This document shows, one piece after another, positions 2,620 through 15,149 of a DNA stretch of 22,846 bases. This stretch comes from a virus. Under the pieces are notes generated by a model. That model saw only the letters and a program-made list of their open reading frames with translations. It was not told the DNA's origin and did not search any database. The stretch lies in IMG/VR virus record IMGVR_UViG_3300028498_000026, positions 1-22,846 of that record. One strand, written 5' to 3'. Numbering within the stretch: the first letter of the stretch is position 1; the number at the start of each line of letters is the position of its first letter. Both the position numbers and the translations under genes were made by a program.

Positions 2620-3162
2620 TCACCTCAGCACCTCGCGCAGGTTGATGCTATCGGCTCTGCAGCTGGCATAAGCGACGTTGATGTCGTCGGCAGCTTGGGC
2701 CTGGTTGAGAAGTAGTCCAGTAAGGTCTGCTGAAAGTAGCCCACCGGCCTCGGCAGCGTCTGCTGCACCACCACCGGCACGGGCAGGATCTGCGCCCGTG
2801 GCGCCACCACCACCGCTCCCACATCCTGCAGCGTTGGGGTCGCGCAGCCTACCAGCAGGCCCGGCAGCAGCACGCAGGCGCACAGCCAGACGATCAATAG
2901 CGCTTTGGTTTTCAGCATCGTGTTTCTCCCGTTCGGTTTTGAGTTCAATCAGCTTGGCCGTAGTGGCATTCGCCCGGTCGGTTTCTGTCTGCAGCAACTG
3001 GCCAGCTTTTGCCTTTTGCTGATCGATAGCAGTGTTGTAGGTAGCGGTTGCTCGGGCTTCGCCAATGCCTTGCTGGTGCGTGGCCCAAGCGCCATACCCC
3101 AGCCACAGCGCGGCAAGCAATCCCCCGATAAGCAGCCAGCGGCCGGGGTTGAGCCACCTCAT
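2620..3162 (-). CDS. Rz-like inner-membrane spanin (i-spanin)
   Basis: The 180-residue product has the i-spanin layout: a short cytoplasmic N-terminus, one membrane anchor at about residues 8-27, then a long hydrophilic, Lys/Glu/Gln-rich, helix-prone periplasmic region (about 30-100). This is followed by a Gly/Ala-rich stretch and an Arg-rich tail. Spanins link inner and outer membranes and fuse them at the end of lysis. Its ATG overlaps the stop of the endolysin gene (ATGA), so the two are translationally coupled. A second lipoprotein reading frame lies wholly inside it, as in lambda Rz/Rz1, which strongly supports the call despite low sequence conservation in this family. The Gly/Ala-rich middle probably reflects the constraint of the overlapping frame. 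Confidence 0.85.
   Translation of the reverse strand: MRWLNPGRWLLIGGLLAALWLGYGAWATHQQGIGEARATATYNTAIDQQKAKAGQLLQTETDRANATTAKLIELKTEREKHDAENQSAIDRLAVRLRAAAGPAGRLRDPNAAGCGSGGGGATGADPARAGGGAADAAEAGGLLSADLTGLLLNQAQAADDINVAYASCRADSINLREVLR
2625..2918 (-). CDS. Rz1-like outer-membrane spanin lipoprotein, nested in Rz
   Basis: A 97-residue lipoprotein is encoded in a different frame entirely inside the Rz-like gene. The start at 2918 is preferred because GGGAG lies eight to nine bases upstream and because it gives a compact signal peptide: MLKTK, a hydrophobic core, then the lipobox LVGC with the lipidated Cys at residue 25. A start ten codons upstream is possible but gives a poor signal peptide. 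The mature protein is rich in Pro and Val, a common o-spanin trait. It would sit in the outer membrane and pair with the Rz-like protein across the periplasm. Its stop lies only a few bases from that of Rz. Confidence 0.85.
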   Translation of the reverse strand: MLKTKALLIVWLCACVLLPGLLVGCATPTLQDVGAVVVAPRAQILPVPVVVQQTLPRPVGYFQQTLLDYFSTRPKLPTTSTSLMPAAEPIASTCARC

Positions 3163-4378: not shown

Positions 4379-4718
4379 TCGAGTTGCCTTTGAAAATCAC
4401 GGACAGATTCCAAACCACCACAGCGATATAGACTCCGACCCACAGCGGCACCCAAAGGATGCTGGTCTGCAGCGTGTAAAAAAGAGTCCCAATCTGCGGC
4501 AGCTTGAGAAGCAGCAACGCCGGTACAAGGCCGACCTTGCCCATGGCCCAGGCCATCGCCTTGTTCTGTTCCCGCCCTATCTGCATGTACAACGCATAGG
4601 CCGTAGCAGCCGCATCGAGCAGGGACGCCAGCACCAACATGCCCAGCCAGGTGTATGGCTCCCAGCCTGTAAGCAGGTACAGGCCGCTCAGAAATTGCTC
4701 GACGGCGCCCAGCATCAT
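4371..4718 (-). CDS. Small membrane protein, possible holin or antiholin
   Basis: A 115-residue protein with three hydrophobic spans at about 22-45, 56-74 and 84-110 and little else. Its ATG overlaps the stop of the tailspike gene (ATGATG containing TGA), and its stop overlaps the next gene by eight bases. It begins the run of three consecutive membrane-protein genes before the endolysin. I do not recognise a family. A role in lysis timing is inferred from position only; an alternative is a membrane-resident exclusion protein. Confidence 0.7.
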   Translation of the reverse strand: MMLGAVEQFLSGLYLLTGWEPYTWLGMLVLASLLDAAATAYALYMQIGREQNKAMAWAMGKVGLVPALLLLKLPQIGTLFYTLQTSILWVPLWVGVYIAVVVWNLSVIFKGNSNG

Positions 4719-7129
4719 GGCGCCTTCAGAATGCTGATGGAGCTGATGACAGCGCCCACCGTGGAGCCTGCGCTGTAGACAACAAACCCTGCCCGCATGT
4801 CGGTCCCGGCTGATCCGGTTGGAACGGTGAATGTCAGGCTGTTGGTGCCCGTGACCAGCACCGTTGACAGCGTGCTGGAGGTCGAAAAGCTCGGGCCGAT
4901 GTCCAGCCGGGTGGTCGCATTGCCAAGCGACGCCACCACGACGACCACGTTGTAAACCTCGCCCACCACATAACTGCCCAGCAGCGCCTGGTAATTGGCG
5001 CCGTACTGCGTGGTGCCGACGTTCAAGTTTCCGCCGCTGATCGACCCGGTGGCGCTCAGCGTCCAGCCGGTTGTCAAATCAAAACTGCCGTTGGTGGTCC
5101 GCTCGGTGACAGTGCCGCCGCCGCTGCTGCCGCCGCCCGAGCTGGCGCCAGGGCTACCCGTGGAGATCATCGGCCAAGTGTCCGCGCCCCAGCGCTTGTT
5201 GTCGCCCTGGGTGAGCGCGCCGCCCACGTTTTGCCCAACGTCAATGGCTGAGGTGTACACCTTGCCGCCTGTACCCGCTGCAGCAACCACAGCGCCGGTC
5301 CCGCCAAACGGCATTCGGTTGTCGTAAGCCTCAAGCACGCACGACCCAAGCATGCCGGTGACCTCGATGTCGCTGAAAATAGCCGCACCGTTCACATGGC
5401 CGGAGCATTTGGTAATTTTGGTCAGCAAAGGCGCCCGTGTGCCATCACCCGTGGTGTTGAACTTGAAAAAAGCCGCTTCACCCAGCGAGGGCGTCCGGGC
5501 GTTCCCAACCCACTTGCAGGCGTTCAACTCAATTTCATTGATCAAGACGCCCGCCGCATCGACAAACCGGGTGAAGCCGCGTCCGCGCACGTTGTCAATC
5601 AAAATGCGGTCAAAGGTCTGCGGCACGCCGGCGAACGCTTCAGCCGAGATCAAGATGGCCGTCGCGTTCGTGGTACTGGTCAGGTCGTTGGACATGTCCA
5701 CGTCGTTGATCACCAAATCACCCTCGACCGGCTGGGTCACAATGCCGATGATGACCCGGCTGATCTTGCCGCCGCGAATATACACATTGCGGTTCCTGCG
5801 GTTGATCAATGAGCCGTTGGCGGTGCCCTGGCCCATCGTGACAACGGCAACGCCGTAGGACCGATTCCCGCCCGCAATCGGGTTGGCTCCGGGGCCGATG
5901 ATGTCAAAGTCGTTGAGGTGTACGTCCGTCGATCCAATGATACGGATCGGCGGGGTGAACCGGGCCACCGTCCACTCCCGCATCTTGATGCGAACAAAAT
6001 CAATGTTCACATCCTGTGCGCCGAACAGCGAGATGGCCTGGTAGTCCAGATCAATGAATTCCGCATAGTCGATCTGCACGCCGGACACCGGCACCAGGGC
6101 ATTCGTCAGGTAGCAGTCTGAAAAGGCAATAAACCCTTCGCTGCAATTTTGAAAGCGGGCGCCCTTGATCCGAAAGCCCTTGTGGGCGGTGCCGTCGCGG
6201 CTGTCGAACTGCAGGGCAAAACCGCCGCCCGCCTGCGCTGTGTGGTAGCGGTGCTGGTAGGTGATGCCATCGGTCGAGCAGCCGTTGGCCTGCACACACA
6301 GCAGCGCGGTGGTGGACCAGTACGACTCGGTCGCGGCGTTGGTTTCGCAGCGCAGCAGGGAGCTGTCATAGCCGTACCCCAGAAAGGCCACGTTGTTGGA
6401 CCGGGAAAACACGCCCGCTGAGCAAACCACTTCGTAGGGCGGAAACAGGAAGGTGCAGCCGCTGGGGAGCAAGTCCAGCGCGGACTGCAAGGGCAGGTGC
6501 CCATTGTTGCCGTACCCGGTCGTCACACCCCACCAAGCCAAATGGTAGCGGCGGTCCAGCACTTGACGCACCCAGGCGCCAGAGGCTCCGGTGGTGGTAC
6601 TGCTGGGCGCGATATACAGGCCCTGGTACGGGTCGGCGGTGACTTTGGCCGACAAATTGCTGCCTGACCACTGGAACAAGCCTTCGCGTCCCGCTTCGGT
6701 CAGGTAGATCAGCGAGAAGGACGGGGAAATCTCCGCCATAAGCGCCCGGCTCGCCGCAGTGATGTATCGCGCCGACAGCGTCGAGTTCGCGGCATCCACG
6801 GCAATTTTTTTGGCGGCTTCGGCCTGCCCGACATAACTGGCAGCGACGGCAGTGTCAACCAAAGCCACTTTGGCGGGGATGGCGATGAGTGCTGCGGCTT
6901 TGGCGTCCTCTATCTGTGCCACCTTGGCAGGGATTGCAATGAGGGCGGCGGTCTTGGCAGTTTCGAACAGCGCCATTTTTGACTCAATGGCAACAATTGA
7001 TCCGGCCATGGTGTTTTTCACGCCCCCGAGCCGGTCAGTGGCCGTGGGTGCCGTGGAGGTGGCAATGGCGGCGATGTGGTCGACATCGAGCTTGGCGTTG
7101 GTTAAATCTGCAATCGTGATGGCGGGCAT
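4715..7129 (-). CDS. Tailspike/tail fibre, beta-helix with C-terminal binding domain
   Basis: This 804-residue protein is the likely receptor-binding protein. Residues 1-42 are a short virion-attachment segment. Residues 43-96 hold three copies of an 18-residue repeat, the last two sharing AALIAIPAKVA, which look like a helical trimeric stalk. From about 135 to 650 the sequence reads as a right-handed parallel beta-helix (pectate-lyase-like), with many short Gly/Asn turns and alternating hydrophobic strands. A Gly/Ser linker near 656-674 leads to a C-terminal beta-sandwich of about 130 residues that begins NGSFDLTTGW, like CBM4/9-type carbohydrate-binding modules. Such spikes bind and often cut surface polysaccharide; catalytic residues cannot be assigned by eye. 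It follows the TipJ-like C gene after a nine-base gap, the usual place for fibre genes. Confidence 0.88.
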   Translation of the reverse strand: MPAITIADLTNAKLDVDHIAAIATSTAPTATDRLGGVKNTMAGSIVAIESKMALFETAKTAALIAIPAKVAQIEDAKAAALIAIPAKVALVDTAVAASYVGQAEAAKKIAVDAANSTLSARYITAASRALMAEISPSFSLIYLTEAGREGLFQWSGSNLSAKVTADPYQGLYIAPSSTTTGASGAWVRQVLDRRYHLAWWGVTTGYGNNGHLPLQSALDLLPSGCTFLFPPYEVVCSAGVFSRSNNVAFLGYGYDSSLLRCETNAATESYWSTTALLCVQANGCSTDGITYQHRYHTAQAGGGFALQFDSRDGTAHKGFRIKGARFQNCSEGFIAFSDCYLTNALVPVSGVQIDYAEFIDLDYQAISLFGAQDVNIDFVRIKMREWTVARFTPPIRIIGSTDVHLNDFDIIGPGANPIAGGNRSYGVAVVTMGQGTANGSLINRRNRNVYIRGGKISRVIIGIVTQPVEGDLVINDVDMSNDLTSTTNATAILISAEAFAGVPQTFDRILIDNVRGRGFTRFVDAAGVLINEIELNACKWVGNARTPSLGEAAFFKFNTTGDGTRAPLLTKITKCSGHVNGAAIFSDIEVTGMLGSCVLEAYDNRMPFGGTGAVVAAAGTGGKVYTSAIDVGQNVGGALTQGDNKRWGADTWPMISTGSPGASSGGGSSGGGTVTERTTNGSFDLTTGWTLSATGSISGGNLNVGTTQYGANYQALLGSYVVGEVYNVVVVVASLGNATTRLDIGPSFSTSSTLSTVLVTGTNSLTFTVPTGSAGTDMRAGFVVYSAGSTVGAVISSISILKAP

Positions 7130-11154: not shown

Positions 11155-14016
11155 TTAGCGGCTCCTTTGCGTGGCGTAATTGCGCGAGAAGGCCCGGCTT
11201 GTCTTGCTGTTGGGGTCGCCGAACTGCGCGGCGGTGGCGGCCACGGCCTCCTCGATGATCAGCGCCCGCTCGCCGTTGCTCATGCGCTGCTCGGTCACCT
11301 TGCCGATCTTGGCGCTGGTGTTGTTGACGATGGTGATGGCGCCGCCCTTGCTGTCGCTGGCGCTGCCGTTGCGGGCCAGGTCGCGGATCACGTTGGCCTG
11401 CGCCTGGGGCAGCACCATTTCCTTTTCGTGCAATTGCGTCATCGGGTTGACGCCGGCCGGAATGTCAAAGCCGTCACGGGCAGAGGCCACGCTCAGCGTC
11501 GCGGCTGCCGTGGCGGCCACTGCAAAGCCTTCTGCCAACGCAGTGGCCGCCGCAGCAGCACCCGGCGCCAGCACTGGGCCGACGATGGGGATGGCTGCCG
11601 TCGAGGCAAACGCAGCCAGCCCAGCCATGGCGACCATGGCCTGCGACTGCGCTGCAATGGTGGCCGCGTACCCAGTTGCTGCCGTCTTGTCAAGAAACAG
11701 CTTCTGGATCTGGATCTTGATGAAGCCGGTAATAAAGGCGTCGGCCACGTTAAGCGCGACCGCCTTGAGGCTTTCTTCCAGGCTTTTGCCGCTCAGGATG
11801 GCGGCTGAAATACTCGATGACACGCCATCGGTGATGCTGTCAAACGCATTGGAAAACATGGCAGCGGTGTTGCCCGACACATTTTCCGCGCTGGTTTGGT
11901 AGTTGGCAAACGCCTCAGTGGCGCCATTGAGCCAGTCGGCCTGCTTTTCCTTGATGGCCACCGTGCGGGCGTCGTAGGCGGCGATTTCCTTGGCATACGT
12001 GTCGTTGACGATGGCCAGGTAGGTGTCAAACTGCGTCCGGTCGATCTGGTTGCGGCGCAGGTCGCCTTCCAAGCCTTGGCGCTGCGCGGTCTGCTTGTCC
12101 TCGATAACACTGCGCCCGGCTTGGTTCGCCCGGAATTCATCACCCCGGCCGACGCCAGCGATTTCGCGTGCATTTTGCTTGTTGACCGTTTCAATGTAGG
12201 CCTGCGCGGCCTTGGTCGCGTCCACATAGGATTGCGCGATCTTGGCGTTGGCGGCGACTTCCTGGGTTTTCAGTACCTCGATGTTGGCGACCGAGCTTTC
12301 CCGCACTTTGTCGAGCTTCGCCTGGGCATCGGCAATCTTGCGCAGGTTGTCGATTTTATCCTTGCCCGTCAGCTTTTCCTGGTTCAGGCGGGCCAGTTCT
12401 TTTTGCAGTTCGGCCTCTTGCGCCTGGCTGTTCAGGTTCAGGAACCCAAGCTTGGAGGCGTAATAGTCTTTGTCGCTGATCAGCGTTGCTGAGCGCCGGG
12501 CTTCCATGATCTTTTCTGCGCTGGCGAACGTGGCAATCTGCGCTTCACTGGATTTTCTGATTTCATCCAAGTCGAACGCCAGTTGCGCCTTGGCCTCTTG
12601 CCGGGCGGTGTCCTTGCCTTCCTTGTCCTTTTTGGCAGCGCCGTCGAACGTCAACACCTTGCCGGTTTGCTGACCGATGCTACCGGGGTCACCCAGCCGG
12701 CGCGGGTCGTCAAACGGCCTGTTGGCGATGCGTGCGCGTACCTTGTCGGCCATGCCCGCACCTTGCGACAGCCGCTCGTAGCGGGCATTTGCATCTTTAA
12801 GCGTTTGCTCGCGCTCCTTGATGGCCAGTTCCAGCGCGGCAGTGTTCCGCTTGTAAATATAGTCTGGCCCCACCACAGACGCTGCCGCATTGGCCGCGCC
12901 GCGCACCACGACATCGGCATCGGCAGCAATGACATTCAAGCTGCCTTTGAGCGCCAGCAGCGCCCCTGAAGCGTTGTAGATGCCGTCCACCAGTTCAGCC
13001 ACTGAAATGGCGGCAGAATCAGCAAAGGTTTTGATCCCGGTGTTGCCCGCCAACCCGGTGGATTCTTTGCCAACGCTCAAAAGCTCTTTGACTGAGTCGC
13101 CCAACGCGCCAGTGAACGCCGTCAGCGCCGGCAGCGCCTGCGTGGCCAGCGCTGACGCATACAGGCTCAGCTCGGCGCGCTGCTTGGCTTGCTTGTCGGC
13201 GTAGTCGTCGGCCAGGCGGATCTGTTCTTGCGTGAGGATGACCTGGCGCCCGCCTTCTTGCCCCAACTCTTTCAAAAATGGCAACAGATCGGCGCCGGAC
13301 TTGCCGAACAGCGCCATCGCCACGGCGGTTTTTTGTGCGCCGTCTTGAAACCCCGACAGCGCCTTAGCCACCGTTTCGATTTGGTCGGCAGGCCGGAGCT
13401 TTTTAAAGTCATCCAGGCTCAAACCAAGAGCCGAAATGGCAGCGCCTGCGGCTTTGGAGTCGTCGTCGACCCCGGTCAATCCCTTGGTCAGCTTGGCCGA
13501 TGCGCTGACAATCGTGTCCATGGCCGTGCCGGCAGTCCCAGCCGCAACAGCCAGGCTGGCAATGTTCTCGGCCGTGTCGCCCGTCTTTTCGGCCATGTCC
13601 TGAAAGTCACCCGCCTTTTTGATCAAGGCGTCGAATCCAGCCGCCGCCGCGATCAGGCCCGTCGCGGCAATCGCGCCAAAGGCCAATAGGCCCGTGCGCA
13701 GACGCTGCCCCATGGCTTCGCCCTTGGCGTAGCCTTCAGAGAGTTTTAGCGCTGAATCGGCCGCTTTGAGTTGCGCGTCGGAGGCGCCGCGCAGCGCCAG
13801 CTTGTACAACTCAGTTTCCCGGGTGGTTTTTCCGGTGGTGACCGCCGCAACGCCCAGCTGTTTGACATAGCGGTCAATGGATGCGCTCTGGCTCTTTGTG
13901 GCATCGCCGGCCGCGATGCCCAGCCCTTTGAGGCTGCGCTTGGCGTCGTCAATGCCGGCCTTGAGTTTGGTGGCGTCCGCAGACACCTCAATAACGCCGG
14001 AGCCTATAACGGTCAT
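11155..14016 (-). CDS. Tape measure protein
   Basis: A 953-residue tape measure protein that sets tail length and is ejected ahead of the DNA. The N-terminus (GSGVIEVSADATKLKAGID) is typical of phage tape measures. A hydrophobic segment lies at about 108-128 and a long Ala-rich hydrophobic region at about 810-875. The middle is largely helical and coiled, rich in Lys, Glu, Ala and Gln (for example 480-680). The C-terminal PMTQLHEKEMVLP motif is also usual. By the rule of about 0.15 nm per residue the tail would be near 140 nm, so a siphovirus is expected. The gene starts 15 bases after a terminator-like hairpin and is the longest in the window. Confidence 0.95.
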   Translation of the reverse strand: MTVIGSGVIEVSADATKLKAGIDDAKRSLKGLGIAAGDATKSQSASIDRYVKQLGVAAVTTGKTTRETELYKLALRGASDAQLKAADSALKLSEGYAKGEAMGQRLRTGLLAFGAIAATGLIAAAAGFDALIKKAGDFQDMAEKTGDTAENIASLAVAAGTAGTAMDTIVSASAKLTKGLTGVDDDSKAAGAAISALGLSLDDFKKLRPADQIETVAKALSGFQDGAQKTAVAMALFGKSGADLLPFLKELGQEGGRQVILTQEQIRLADDYADKQAKQRAELSLYASALATQALPALTAFTGALGDSVKELLSVGKESTGLAGNTGIKTFADSAAISVAELVDGIYNASGALLALKGSLNVIAADADVVVRGAANAAASVVGPDYIYKRNTAALELAIKEREQTLKDANARYERLSQGAGMADKVRARIANRPFDDPRRLGDPGSIGQQTGKVLTFDGAAKKDKEGKDTARQEAKAQLAFDLDEIRKSSEAQIATFASAEKIMEARRSATLISDKDYYASKLGFLNLNSQAQEAELQKELARLNQEKLTGKDKIDNLRKIADAQAKLDKVRESSVANIEVLKTQEVAANAKIAQSYVDATKAAQAYIETVNKQNAREIAGVGRGDEFRANQAGRSVIEDKQTAQRQGLEGDLRRNQIDRTQFDTYLAIVNDTYAKEIAAYDARTVAIKEKQADWLNGATEAFANYQTSAENVSGNTAAMFSNAFDSITDGVSSSISAAILSGKSLEESLKAVALNVADAFITGFIKIQIQKLFLDKTAATGYAATIAAQSQAMVAMAGLAAFASTAAIPIVGPVLAPGAAAAATALAEGFAVAATAAATLSVASARDGFDIPAGVNPMTQLHEKEMVLPQAQANVIRDLARNGSASDSKGGAITIVNNTSAKIGKVTEQRMSNGERALIIEEAVAATAAQFGDPNSKTSRAFSRNYATQRSR

Positions 14017-14030
14017 TGTGTGACGCCCAT

Positions 14031-14055
14031 AAAAAAAGCCCGCCGTAGCGAGCCT
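14031..14055 (-). terminator. Terminator-like hairpin before tape measure
   Basis: On the minus strand AGGCTCGC pairs with GGGCGGCTT-type sequence (eight pairs including wobbles, loop TACG) and is followed by seven T. It ends 15 bases before the tape measure ATG and forms a pair with the hairpin at 14064-14088. Confidence 0.7.
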
Positions 14056-14063
14056 GTGAATTG

Positions 14064-14088
14064 AAAAAGCCAGCGGCGAGGCTGGCTT
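14064..14088 (-). terminator. Intrinsic terminator after the lipoprotein gene
   Basis: An eight-base perfect stem AAGCCAGC/GCTGGCTT with loop CTCGCC is followed by a T-run on the minus strand. It lies 19 bases after the stop of the lipoprotein gene and would define that gene's 3' end, an arrangement typical of phage moron units. Confidence 0.85.
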
Positions 14089-14106
14089 ATTTGATAGTGT
14101 GTGGTC

Positions 14107-14487
14107 TTACGGCGACGGGGTTGATGAACGCCCGTTGCGGGTTTCTTGTTGCGTTTCTGTCGTTTGGTGATTTACCAATTTGCCCGCTTTGTCGAACGTA
14201 AACACTGTAGAGCTTGTCCGAATATCAGCGCCTCCGGCGAATAGCCCGACAACAGGAATGAACGTAGCCCCTTTAACTTGATACTGTGCGAACGCATAGG
14301 TCATGACGCGCGATCCATCCGACGAACTCATCAAAGTCTGCGGCTTGCCGAGTACCTTGATTACGTCTACCTCTGTGGTTTTTCCTGTTTCAAATGCCGT
14401 TAACTGATCTGCTTTTACCTGGCTGCCGGTAGACGCGCACCCCGCTAGTGCCGAAAAAACCACCAAAACCGCAAACATCGTTTTCAT
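14107..14487 (-). CDS. BamE/SmpA-like lipoprotein (phage moron)
   Basis: A 126-residue lipoprotein. The start at 14487 follows AAGGGGA and gives a clean signal peptide, MKTMFAVLVVFSALAGC, with the lipobox LAGC and lipidated Cys17. The mature part holds F-E-T-G-K-T-T-E-x-D-V-I-K-V-L-G-K-P at about 32-49, the hallmark of BamE/SmpA/OmlA-type folds, then beta-strands and a polar Gln/Thr/Arg-rich tail. No +2 Asp is present (Ala18), so outer-membrane sorting is expected. It interrupts the tail operon between the chaperones and the tape measure, 39 bases after the G-T stop, and is followed by two terminators. It has no known part in tail assembly. A role in lysogenic conversion, such as superinfection exclusion or envelope change, is inferred. 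Confidence 0.82.
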   Translation of the reverse strand: MKTMFAVLVVFSALAGCASTGSQVKADQLTAFETGKTTEVDVIKVLGKPQTLMSSSDGSRVMTYAFAQYQVKGATFIPVVGLFAGGADIRTSSTVFTFDKAGKLVNHQTTETQQETRNGRSSTPSP

Positions 14488-14495
14488 ACTATCCC

Positions 14496-14509
14496 CTTGT
14501 TGTAACAAG
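14496..14509. promoter_or_regulatory. Inverted repeat upstream of lipoprotein gene
   Basis: CTTGTT and AACAAG are separated by two bases, forming a 14-base dyad that ends nine bases before the lipoprotein ATG and abuts its ribosome site. It could be a small operator or an RNA hairpin affecting translation. No clear promoter boxes were found nearby. Confidence 0.35.
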
Positions 14510-14526
14510 ATGATATCGCTGAAGCT

Positions 14527-14841
14527 CTAATTTGCCGACTGCATTTGCGTCAGCGCCGCGTCTTCCATGATTCGAACTTCCTCGAAAACAGTGGCACGGT
14601 CAGCAGGGATAACCCCGCCAAACCGCATCACGACAGGCAGGGCGTTGTAGTCCAGGCCGGTCGCGCCGTTCATGCCCACGCGCCACTGCGTACTCATCGC
14701 AATGAAGCAATTGGCCGCCTGCAGGTTGTCGGGCCACAGCTCGACCGCGTCGCCTTGCGCTTCTTCCAGCGTCAGGCCGAAGTTAGCCGCCTCTGCCGCG
14801 CTTGGCCCTTTCGAGTACAGCGCTACAGCGGCGGCCTTTAG
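14527..14841 (-). CDS. Tail assembly chaperone T domain (G-T frameshift extension, DUF1799-like)
   Basis: From the frameshift site the -1 frame stays open for 104 codons to TAG at 14527-14529. It encodes LKAAAVALYSKGPSAAEAAN at the start, then GLTLEEAQGDAVELWPDN, a cysteine- and tryptophan-containing centre, and an end of MQSAN. The region has no good independent start codon at its beginning, so it should be made only as a fusion to G (about 207 residues in all), as lambda gpGT is. The composition and the E-x-W-P-D-N motif resemble DUF1799-type phage proteins, which occupy this place in related phages. Its role would be to bind tail tube subunits while the G part holds the tape measure. Confidence 0.85.
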   Translation of the reverse strand, partial: LKAAAVALYSKGPSAAEAANFGLTLEEAQGDAVELWPDNLQAANCFIAMSTQWRVGMNGATGLDYNALPVVMRFGGVIPADRATVFEEVRIMEDAALTQMQSAN

Positions 14842-14847
14842 TTTTTT
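14791..14847 (-). promoter_or_regulatory. Programmed -1 frameshift signal A AAA AAC
   Basis: The slippery heptamer A AAA AAC occupies 14847-14841 in the exact zero-frame phasing (GCA AAA AAC), directly before the TAA of gene G. After a five-base spacer, GCCGCC at 14835-14830 can pair with GGCGGC at 14791-14786. One mismatch and two more pairs extend the stem, forming a downstream stimulatory stem. Slippage moves ribosomes into the 104-codon open T frame. Confidence 0.88.
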
Positions 14848-15149
14848 GCTTTGGTCTTCACCAGTTCGGCTTTATAGGTGTCGTACACCGCCAGCGCCGC
14901 GCCCATGTAGTTTTCCAGCAGCAATTCGACCGATGCCTGGTTGAATTCTTCTTCAAATTCCCAGCCGGTCAGCATTTCCATGAAGGCTTCGGCGTCTGTC
15001 TTTTTGGCCAGCCCTTTGCCAAACTCGTCCAGGGCGGTTTTTGTCATGTGCCGGAAGGTGAATTCCATCGGCACGGGCTCGCCACCGGCCACAGGGATCA
15101 ACACTTTCGCCTTGAAGACGGGGTTTGCAATTAACTTGAGTTTTGCCAT
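14838..15149 (-). CDS. Tail assembly chaperone G
   Basis: A 103-residue chaperone matching phage tail assembly chaperones located between tail tube and tape measure genes. It has a beta-rich start (MAKLKLIANPVFKAKVLIPV), then FTFRHMTKTALDEFGK and an acidic helical end with WEFEEEFNQ and LLLENYMGAALAVYDTYK. The start at 15149 (MAKLK) is preferred to an ATG ten codons upstream, which lies inside an inverted repeat. No strong ribosome site precedes it. The last codons carry the slippery site that yields the longer G-T form. The pair is expected to wrap the tape measure and recruit tube subunits. Confidence 0.88.
   Translation of the reverse strand: MAKLKLIANPVFKAKVLIPVAGGEPVPMEFTFRHMTKTALDEFGKGLAKKTDAEAFMEMLTGWEFEEEFNQASVELLLENYMGAALAVYDTYKAELVKTKAKN

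Follow-up and report, generated by a model that had tools for sequence, protein, structure and literature searches.

We identified a gene for a lipoprotein with a predicted BamE fold, carried as a moron between the tail assembly chaperone and tape measure protein (TMP) genes of a phage. The gene lies in the linear virus fragment IMGVR_UViG_3300028498_000026, which was analyzed over its full length of 22,846 bases (the window). From its place, its fold and the precedents described below, we infer that the product could function in superinfection exclusion. In our best explanation, which as a whole we give about an even chance of being correct, the window phage would be a temperate siphophage whose lysogen expresses the protein in its outer membrane, where it would act on a host beta-barrel receptor or on the assembly of that receptor. 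A previous sequence-only reading of this DNA had singled out the gene and proposed that its product alters outer-membrane protein assembly or blocks superinfection. Its observation was confirmed and its interpretation was partly supported. Our data are consistent with either effect.

The late genes of the fragment are encoded on the minus strand, on which the chaperone gene (TAC), DUF1799, the lipoprotein gene and the TMP gene follow one another in that order. TAC and DUF1799 are probably joined by a -1 frameshift at A AAA AAC, as annotated in the HK97 tail chaperone. The features of the region, in order of transcription, are as follows:

14838-15149, minus strand: tail assembly chaperone (Phage_TAC_4, Pfam match), left border of the slot.
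14847-14841, minus strand: slippery heptamer A AAA AAC, terminal in TAC and leading into DUF1799.
14527-14850, minus strand: DUF1799 overlap frame (PF08809, 2.1e-25), with its stop at 14529-14527.
14510-14538, minus strand: weak promoter-like site, TCGGCA-17-TATCAT, 22 bases before the ATG.
14496-14509, minus strand: perfect, operator-like dyad CTTGTT/AACAAG, CTTGTTGTAACAAG, overlapping the ribosome site.
14107-14487, minus strand: lipoprotein gene (ATG at 14487, stop at 14107 included), 126 aa, phrog_3135, predicted BamE fold.
14437-14448, minus strand: lipobox LAGC, with cysteine 17.
14341-14385, minus strand: BamE/SmpA motif GKTT...LGKP, residues 35-49.
14224-14262, minus strand: conserved FIPVVGLFAGGAD loop, lying between two model strands (residues 76-88).
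14067-14088, minus strand: intrinsic terminator 1, 3' of the lipoprotein gene.
14036-14055, minus strand: intrinsic terminator 2, directly before the TMP start.
11155-14016, minus strand: tape measure protein (Pfam and PHROGs), right border of the slot.

Among named phages, the window terminase is nearest to those of Burkholderia phage BgVeeders33 (66.5%) and Variovorax phage VarioGold (57.7%), which makes a Burkholderiales host likely. The immunity region of the phage falls outside the fragment, and this counts against a reading based on exclusion by the lysogen. Three other minus-strand regions of the window were also noted. Past the lysis genes, positions 475-2481 encode an Acyltransferase_3 protein with an SGNH domain (PF01757, PF19040), likely an O-antigen acetylase and a second envelope-changing cargo gene. 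Nested ORFs at 2620-3162 and 2625-2948 resemble an Rz/Rz1 spanin pair, with a lipobox in the inner ORF. An 804-aa protein in the tail-fibre position (4715-7129) had no Pfam match at E <= 0.01.

The signal peptide and lipobox, together with the chaperone and TMP borders, bear out the earlier description of a secreted lipoprotein between these genes. The lipobox cysteine is kept in 29/29 aligned family members, and 25 of the 29 have some form of the FIPVVGLFAGGAD loop, which was modelled with low confidence. The residue after the cysteine is taken to govern lipoprotein sorting, and the alanine found here points to the outer membrane, so the protein would probably be sorted there. It matches phrog_3135 over its full length (6.2e-19, residues 1-118 on 1-112 of 114), as did all 10 family members scanned; PHROGs annotates this family as being of unknown function. 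The gene has an atypical composition, with a GC content of 0.51 against 0.61 for the window. PADLOC gave no match between the lipoprotein and known defence families, nothing reached the gathering score in an Rfam search, and no close relatives emerged when viral contigs were scanned with this single protein. Our search of the published literature, most of it outside subscription papers, found no tested phage BamE-like lipoprotein or phrog_3135 member.

The BamE/SmpA-type motif claimed earlier also stood up, but through relatives, a family profile and a structural model rather than through the window protein alone. That protein scored below the cut-off for Pfam BamE (PF04355; E = 0.041, 14.1 bits against 23.2), a six-frame search of its own record gave no PF04355 match at E <= 1, and a PDB sequence search with it gave no match. 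In contrast, L001, a relative of 39% identity encoded by Alteromonas phage P24, passed PF04355 (5.8e-9, 36.1 bits), as did L005 (24.2 bits), while L002 sat at the cut-off. The NCBI BamE equivalog PRK11548 was absent among the window protein's matches at E <= 1, and L002 reached 16.5 of the 93 bits that this model requires. When a 21-sequence family profile was compared with the PDB, BamE chains ranked first (best 7.3e-5). An AlphaFold2 model of the window protein (mean pLDDT 79.2, pTM 0.63) provided the comparison with BamE that the sequence-only reading had proposed: all 83 of 83 residues aligned with E. coli BamE (5d0o_E) at Z 11.1, rmsd 2.4 and 19% identity, and the best Foldseek hit was again BamE (1.4e-3). 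A modest score was obtained against TpgA (9vnj_B; Z 6.6), whose N-terminal domain is similar. On the evidence of this model, the window protein is a BamE-fold lipoprotein. It shares with BamE and SmpA/OmlA (PF04355) the lipoprotein form, the fold and a GxTT...GxP motif, and differs from them in being phage-borne, in its FIPVVGLFAGG loop and in falling below the Pfam cut-off on its own.

We then compared the same slot in sister phages, using 69 loci that a tail tube protein scan recovered. Of these, 67 had a readable slot; L173, which has no DUF1799 match, and L180, which is cut, were left out of the count. The slot is empty in 60/67 sisters (L160 included), with at most 57 bases between DUF1799 and the TMP gene against 510 bases in the window. 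An empty site with a 50-base gap is found in the named phage VarioGold. The lipoprotein gene is thus a moron that is unneeded for virion assembly, as had been proposed. In the seven filled slots the cargo is mostly non-homologous, and six of the seven encode envelope proteins by sequence. Three (L181, L201 and L210) hold relatives of the window lipoprotein, with identities of 39, 51 and 43% across the part that aligns. The others hold another lipoprotein (L218, 8050-8620), a small membrane protein (L219, 7240-7580), a zinc-ribbon membrane protein (Zn_ribbon_3; L176, 7340-7640) and an antisense gene that is RES-like by eye (L206, 7220-9150). In two further phages we observed additional genes next to the TMP gene. 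Just ahead of that gene, but on the other strand, phage mEp021 encodes a signal-peptide protein that lacks a Pfam match (L223, 37053-37469, minus strand), and P. aeruginosa phage vB_PaeS-D14C has an ORF resembling a small membrane protein between the BamE-like gene and the TMP gene (L003, 5361-5672).

The family occurs at a second address, after the CI repressor gene. We collected 145 loci with a confident family match, or 89 distinct loci once near-duplicates were removed; four of 17 pattern loci (L133, L139, L142 and L143) were dropped because they lacked a family match at E <= 1e-6. TMP and repressor probes were confirmed through annotation or PHROGs, and flanking genes were checked with PHROGs. 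Distinct loci are not equivalent to independent insertions, and our queries bias a sample drawn mostly from virus contigs; within it, 26/89 loci lie at most 1.5 kb after a CI-type repressor gene on the same strand and 35/89 lie at most 1.8 kb from a TMP gene. By the test used, the remaining 28 have neither address, which counts against our best explanation, although three of these (L035-L037) are situated about 75 bases downstream of an apparent copy of the L032 repressor gene (phrog_4, 1.8e-54). Copies more than 80% identical occur in enterobacterial phages at both addresses, after the CI gene and beside the TMP gene. One cluster of such copies (L004; 55 loci, counting near-duplicates) has 34 members on the CI side and 10 on the TMP side, and another (L054; 25 loci) has 14 and 10. 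Named CI-side examples are E. coli PhiR26_1, Salmonella S107 (with two genes between) and a Herbaspirillum phage-plasmid. In phage lambda, the rexAB genes after cI are expressed in the lysogen, so the CI-side address suggests lysogenic expression of the family.

Both addresses bear on whether the lipoprotein acts at DNA entry, by catching the incoming TMP or DNA in the periplasm in the manner of Ltp or HK97 gp15. The lipoprotein gene adjoins the TMP gene, and passages of two papers describe Ltp and gp15 as blocking DNA injection, with escape mapping to TMP or tail genes (PMC10883804; for Ltp also PMC3952083). However, close homologues occur after CI, far from any TMP gene, and 100%-identical lipoproteins stand beside TMPs that are only 14-20% identical (L050 with L048, L051 and L053), so we consider this alternative unlikely. 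Since identical lipoproteins adjoin such dissimilar TMPs, the protein does not appear to be matched to the TMP of its own phage, and the TMPs of rival phages could still be targets. A tight pairing with its own TMP was rejected as unsupported. The idea of a tail-assembly or virion protein fares far worse: it draws on the tail-operon position only, and the mostly empty sister slots, the homologues after CI and the signal peptide and lipobox make it extremely improbable. We rejected it.

The two tandem terminators reported downstream of the gene are present, and the stretch that contains them folds better than its shuffled versions (z -2.98). Across the family, a terminator lies within 150 bases downstream in 37/70 distinct loci, compared with 23/1311 (1.8%) random stretches taken from the same strand of the same loci, and a hairpin with a T-run stands immediately 5' of the TMP gene in each of the relatives L181, L201 and L210. 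The lipoprotein cassette would probably also have its own promoter. The promoter-like site in the window is weak, which counts against our best explanation; it scored at p 0.09 against shuffles and 0.035 against other window stretches. Of 19 family loci tried, one (L128) was left out as too short, and the other 18 scored only moderately high, at p 0.01-0.84 against shuffles and 0.005-0.63 against other stretches of the same locus. The dyad noted near the ribosome site, CTTGTTGTAACAAG, is real and sits just past the promoter-like -10 box. We regard it as weak evidence because it was not seen in the sister cassettes L181, L201 and L210, and the idea of a shared operator was rejected, given also that the window has a single exact copy.

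Late expression would be possible because the gene lies on the late strand, and this counts against expression in the lysogen. The phage T5 protein Llp is proposed to keep progeny from attaching to the lysing cell or to cell debris, and a lipoprotein made together with the tail genes could protect progeny in the same way. Besides the window, most TMP-side loci would fit such a role: 30 of the 35 have the gene before the TMP gene on the same strand and one has it after, also on the same strand. The terminators 3' of the gene, the four distinct loci in which it is opposite in strand to the TMP gene and the many homologues after CI all argue against a late protector, which we regard as improbable, with little chance of being correct.

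Some relatives occur on plasmids and megaplasmids away from recognised phage genes, which counts against our best explanation; Burkholderia accounts for 101 of the 122 matching plasmid records. The protein might instead serve general lysogenic conversion, joining or modulating the BAM machine and altering porin levels or outer-membrane robustness, with exclusion not its purpose. The BamE fold would suit this role, as BamE binds BamD and POTRA-5 of BamA according to parts of one paper (PMC13067283). So would the relatives carried by conjugative plasmids of Burkholderia, one of which has a YadA-like gene three genes downstream, and a relative on the ROD21 island (SEN1984, in passages of PMC10655114). 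On the other hand, the FIPVVG loop and an identity to BamE of only about 19% suggest a different partner surface, and the phage address dominates our sample, though this sample is mostly virus contigs. We think this alternative distinctly unlikely. One family member on a Burkholderia conjugative plasmid (L145, 5977-6375) has traG upstream and a YadA-like gene downstream, a context that brings to mind TpgA, the partner of a trimeric autotransporter.

We prefer an outer-membrane barrel, or the assembly of one, as the point of action because BamE binds BamA and BamD, and because TpgA, which has a BamE-like fold, binds the single autotransporter barrel AtaA (PMC13082670). In the exclusion mechanism that we propose, the moron cassette in the chaperone/tape-measure slot would consist of the gene, its terminators and, probably, a promoter of its own. 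Its product, a BamE-fold lipoprotein anchored in the outer membrane and facing the periplasm, would be made in the lysogen and would bar rival phages by attaching to an outer-membrane beta-barrel of the host, whether the receptor itself or the BAM machine. More broadly, and with more doubt than confidence, we suggest that a portable BamE-fold exclusion lipoprotein acting on beta-barrels (receptors or BAM) has been repeatedly recruited by temperate phages of Proteobacteria, that its cassette shuttles between the chaperone/tape-measure slot and the repressor operon, and that the former is a general hotspot for exclusion genes that act on the envelope. If this is true, mimicry of a BAM accessory protein would let phages control the receptors or entry routes offered by a lysogen, phrog_3135 would gain a testable role, the widespread 'BamE' annotation in prophages would be explained, and the slot would be marked as a hunting ground for new exclusion genes.

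The earlier statement that no system of exactly this form has been described was too strong. Morons, this slot, BamE-like phage lipoproteins, and the gene and its family in databases were already known. BamE-like phage lipoproteins have been annotated as SmpA/OmlA in phages PP9W2 and B3 and as 'BamE' or 'SEN1984 family lipoprotein' in E. coli. In that species, a copy with 100% DNA identity to the PhiR26_1 gene bears the latter name, and at least 80% of the PhiR26_1 query is present in 67/5426 genomes. SEN1984 of the excisable island ROD21 is called BamE-like in passages of PMC10655114, and the likeness to the window protein is by printed name and description only. In one BAM review, no passage on phages was found under the terms tried. 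The HK97 annotation lists gp15 as a moron product whose gene occupies this very slot, downstream of the frameshifted chaperone pair and ahead of the TMP gene, with a terminator. Parts of PMC10883804 cite it as a superinfection-exclusion protein that blocks DNA injection and report it as a predicted inner-membrane protein. It is 62 aa long, has no lipobox and was judged non-homologous from its translation alone. The exclusion lipoproteins Cor (phrog_1119) and Lpp of the mEpimmI phages are phage lipoproteins encoded among structural genes, and short lipoproteins of the mEpimmI phages, unrelated to the window protein, exclude phages when expressed in E. coli, according to sections of PMC11893012. 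The mEp021 Lpp, however, has 72 aa and lies after J rather than in the chaperone/tape-measure slot. Membership of the Cor family was rejected, as the match to phrog_1119 covers only the N-terminal signal region (residues 1-45, E 0.013) and is not full-length. Ltp of TP-J34, transcribed from the prophage within the lysogeny module, is a lipoprotein for superinfection exclusion (described in parts of PMC3952083), but its host is Gram-positive, and its comparison with the window protein covers the proposed role. Against this background, the portability of the family between two addresses, the role of the slot as an envelope-cargo hotspot and the hypothesis linking the BamE fold to exclusion seem to be new.
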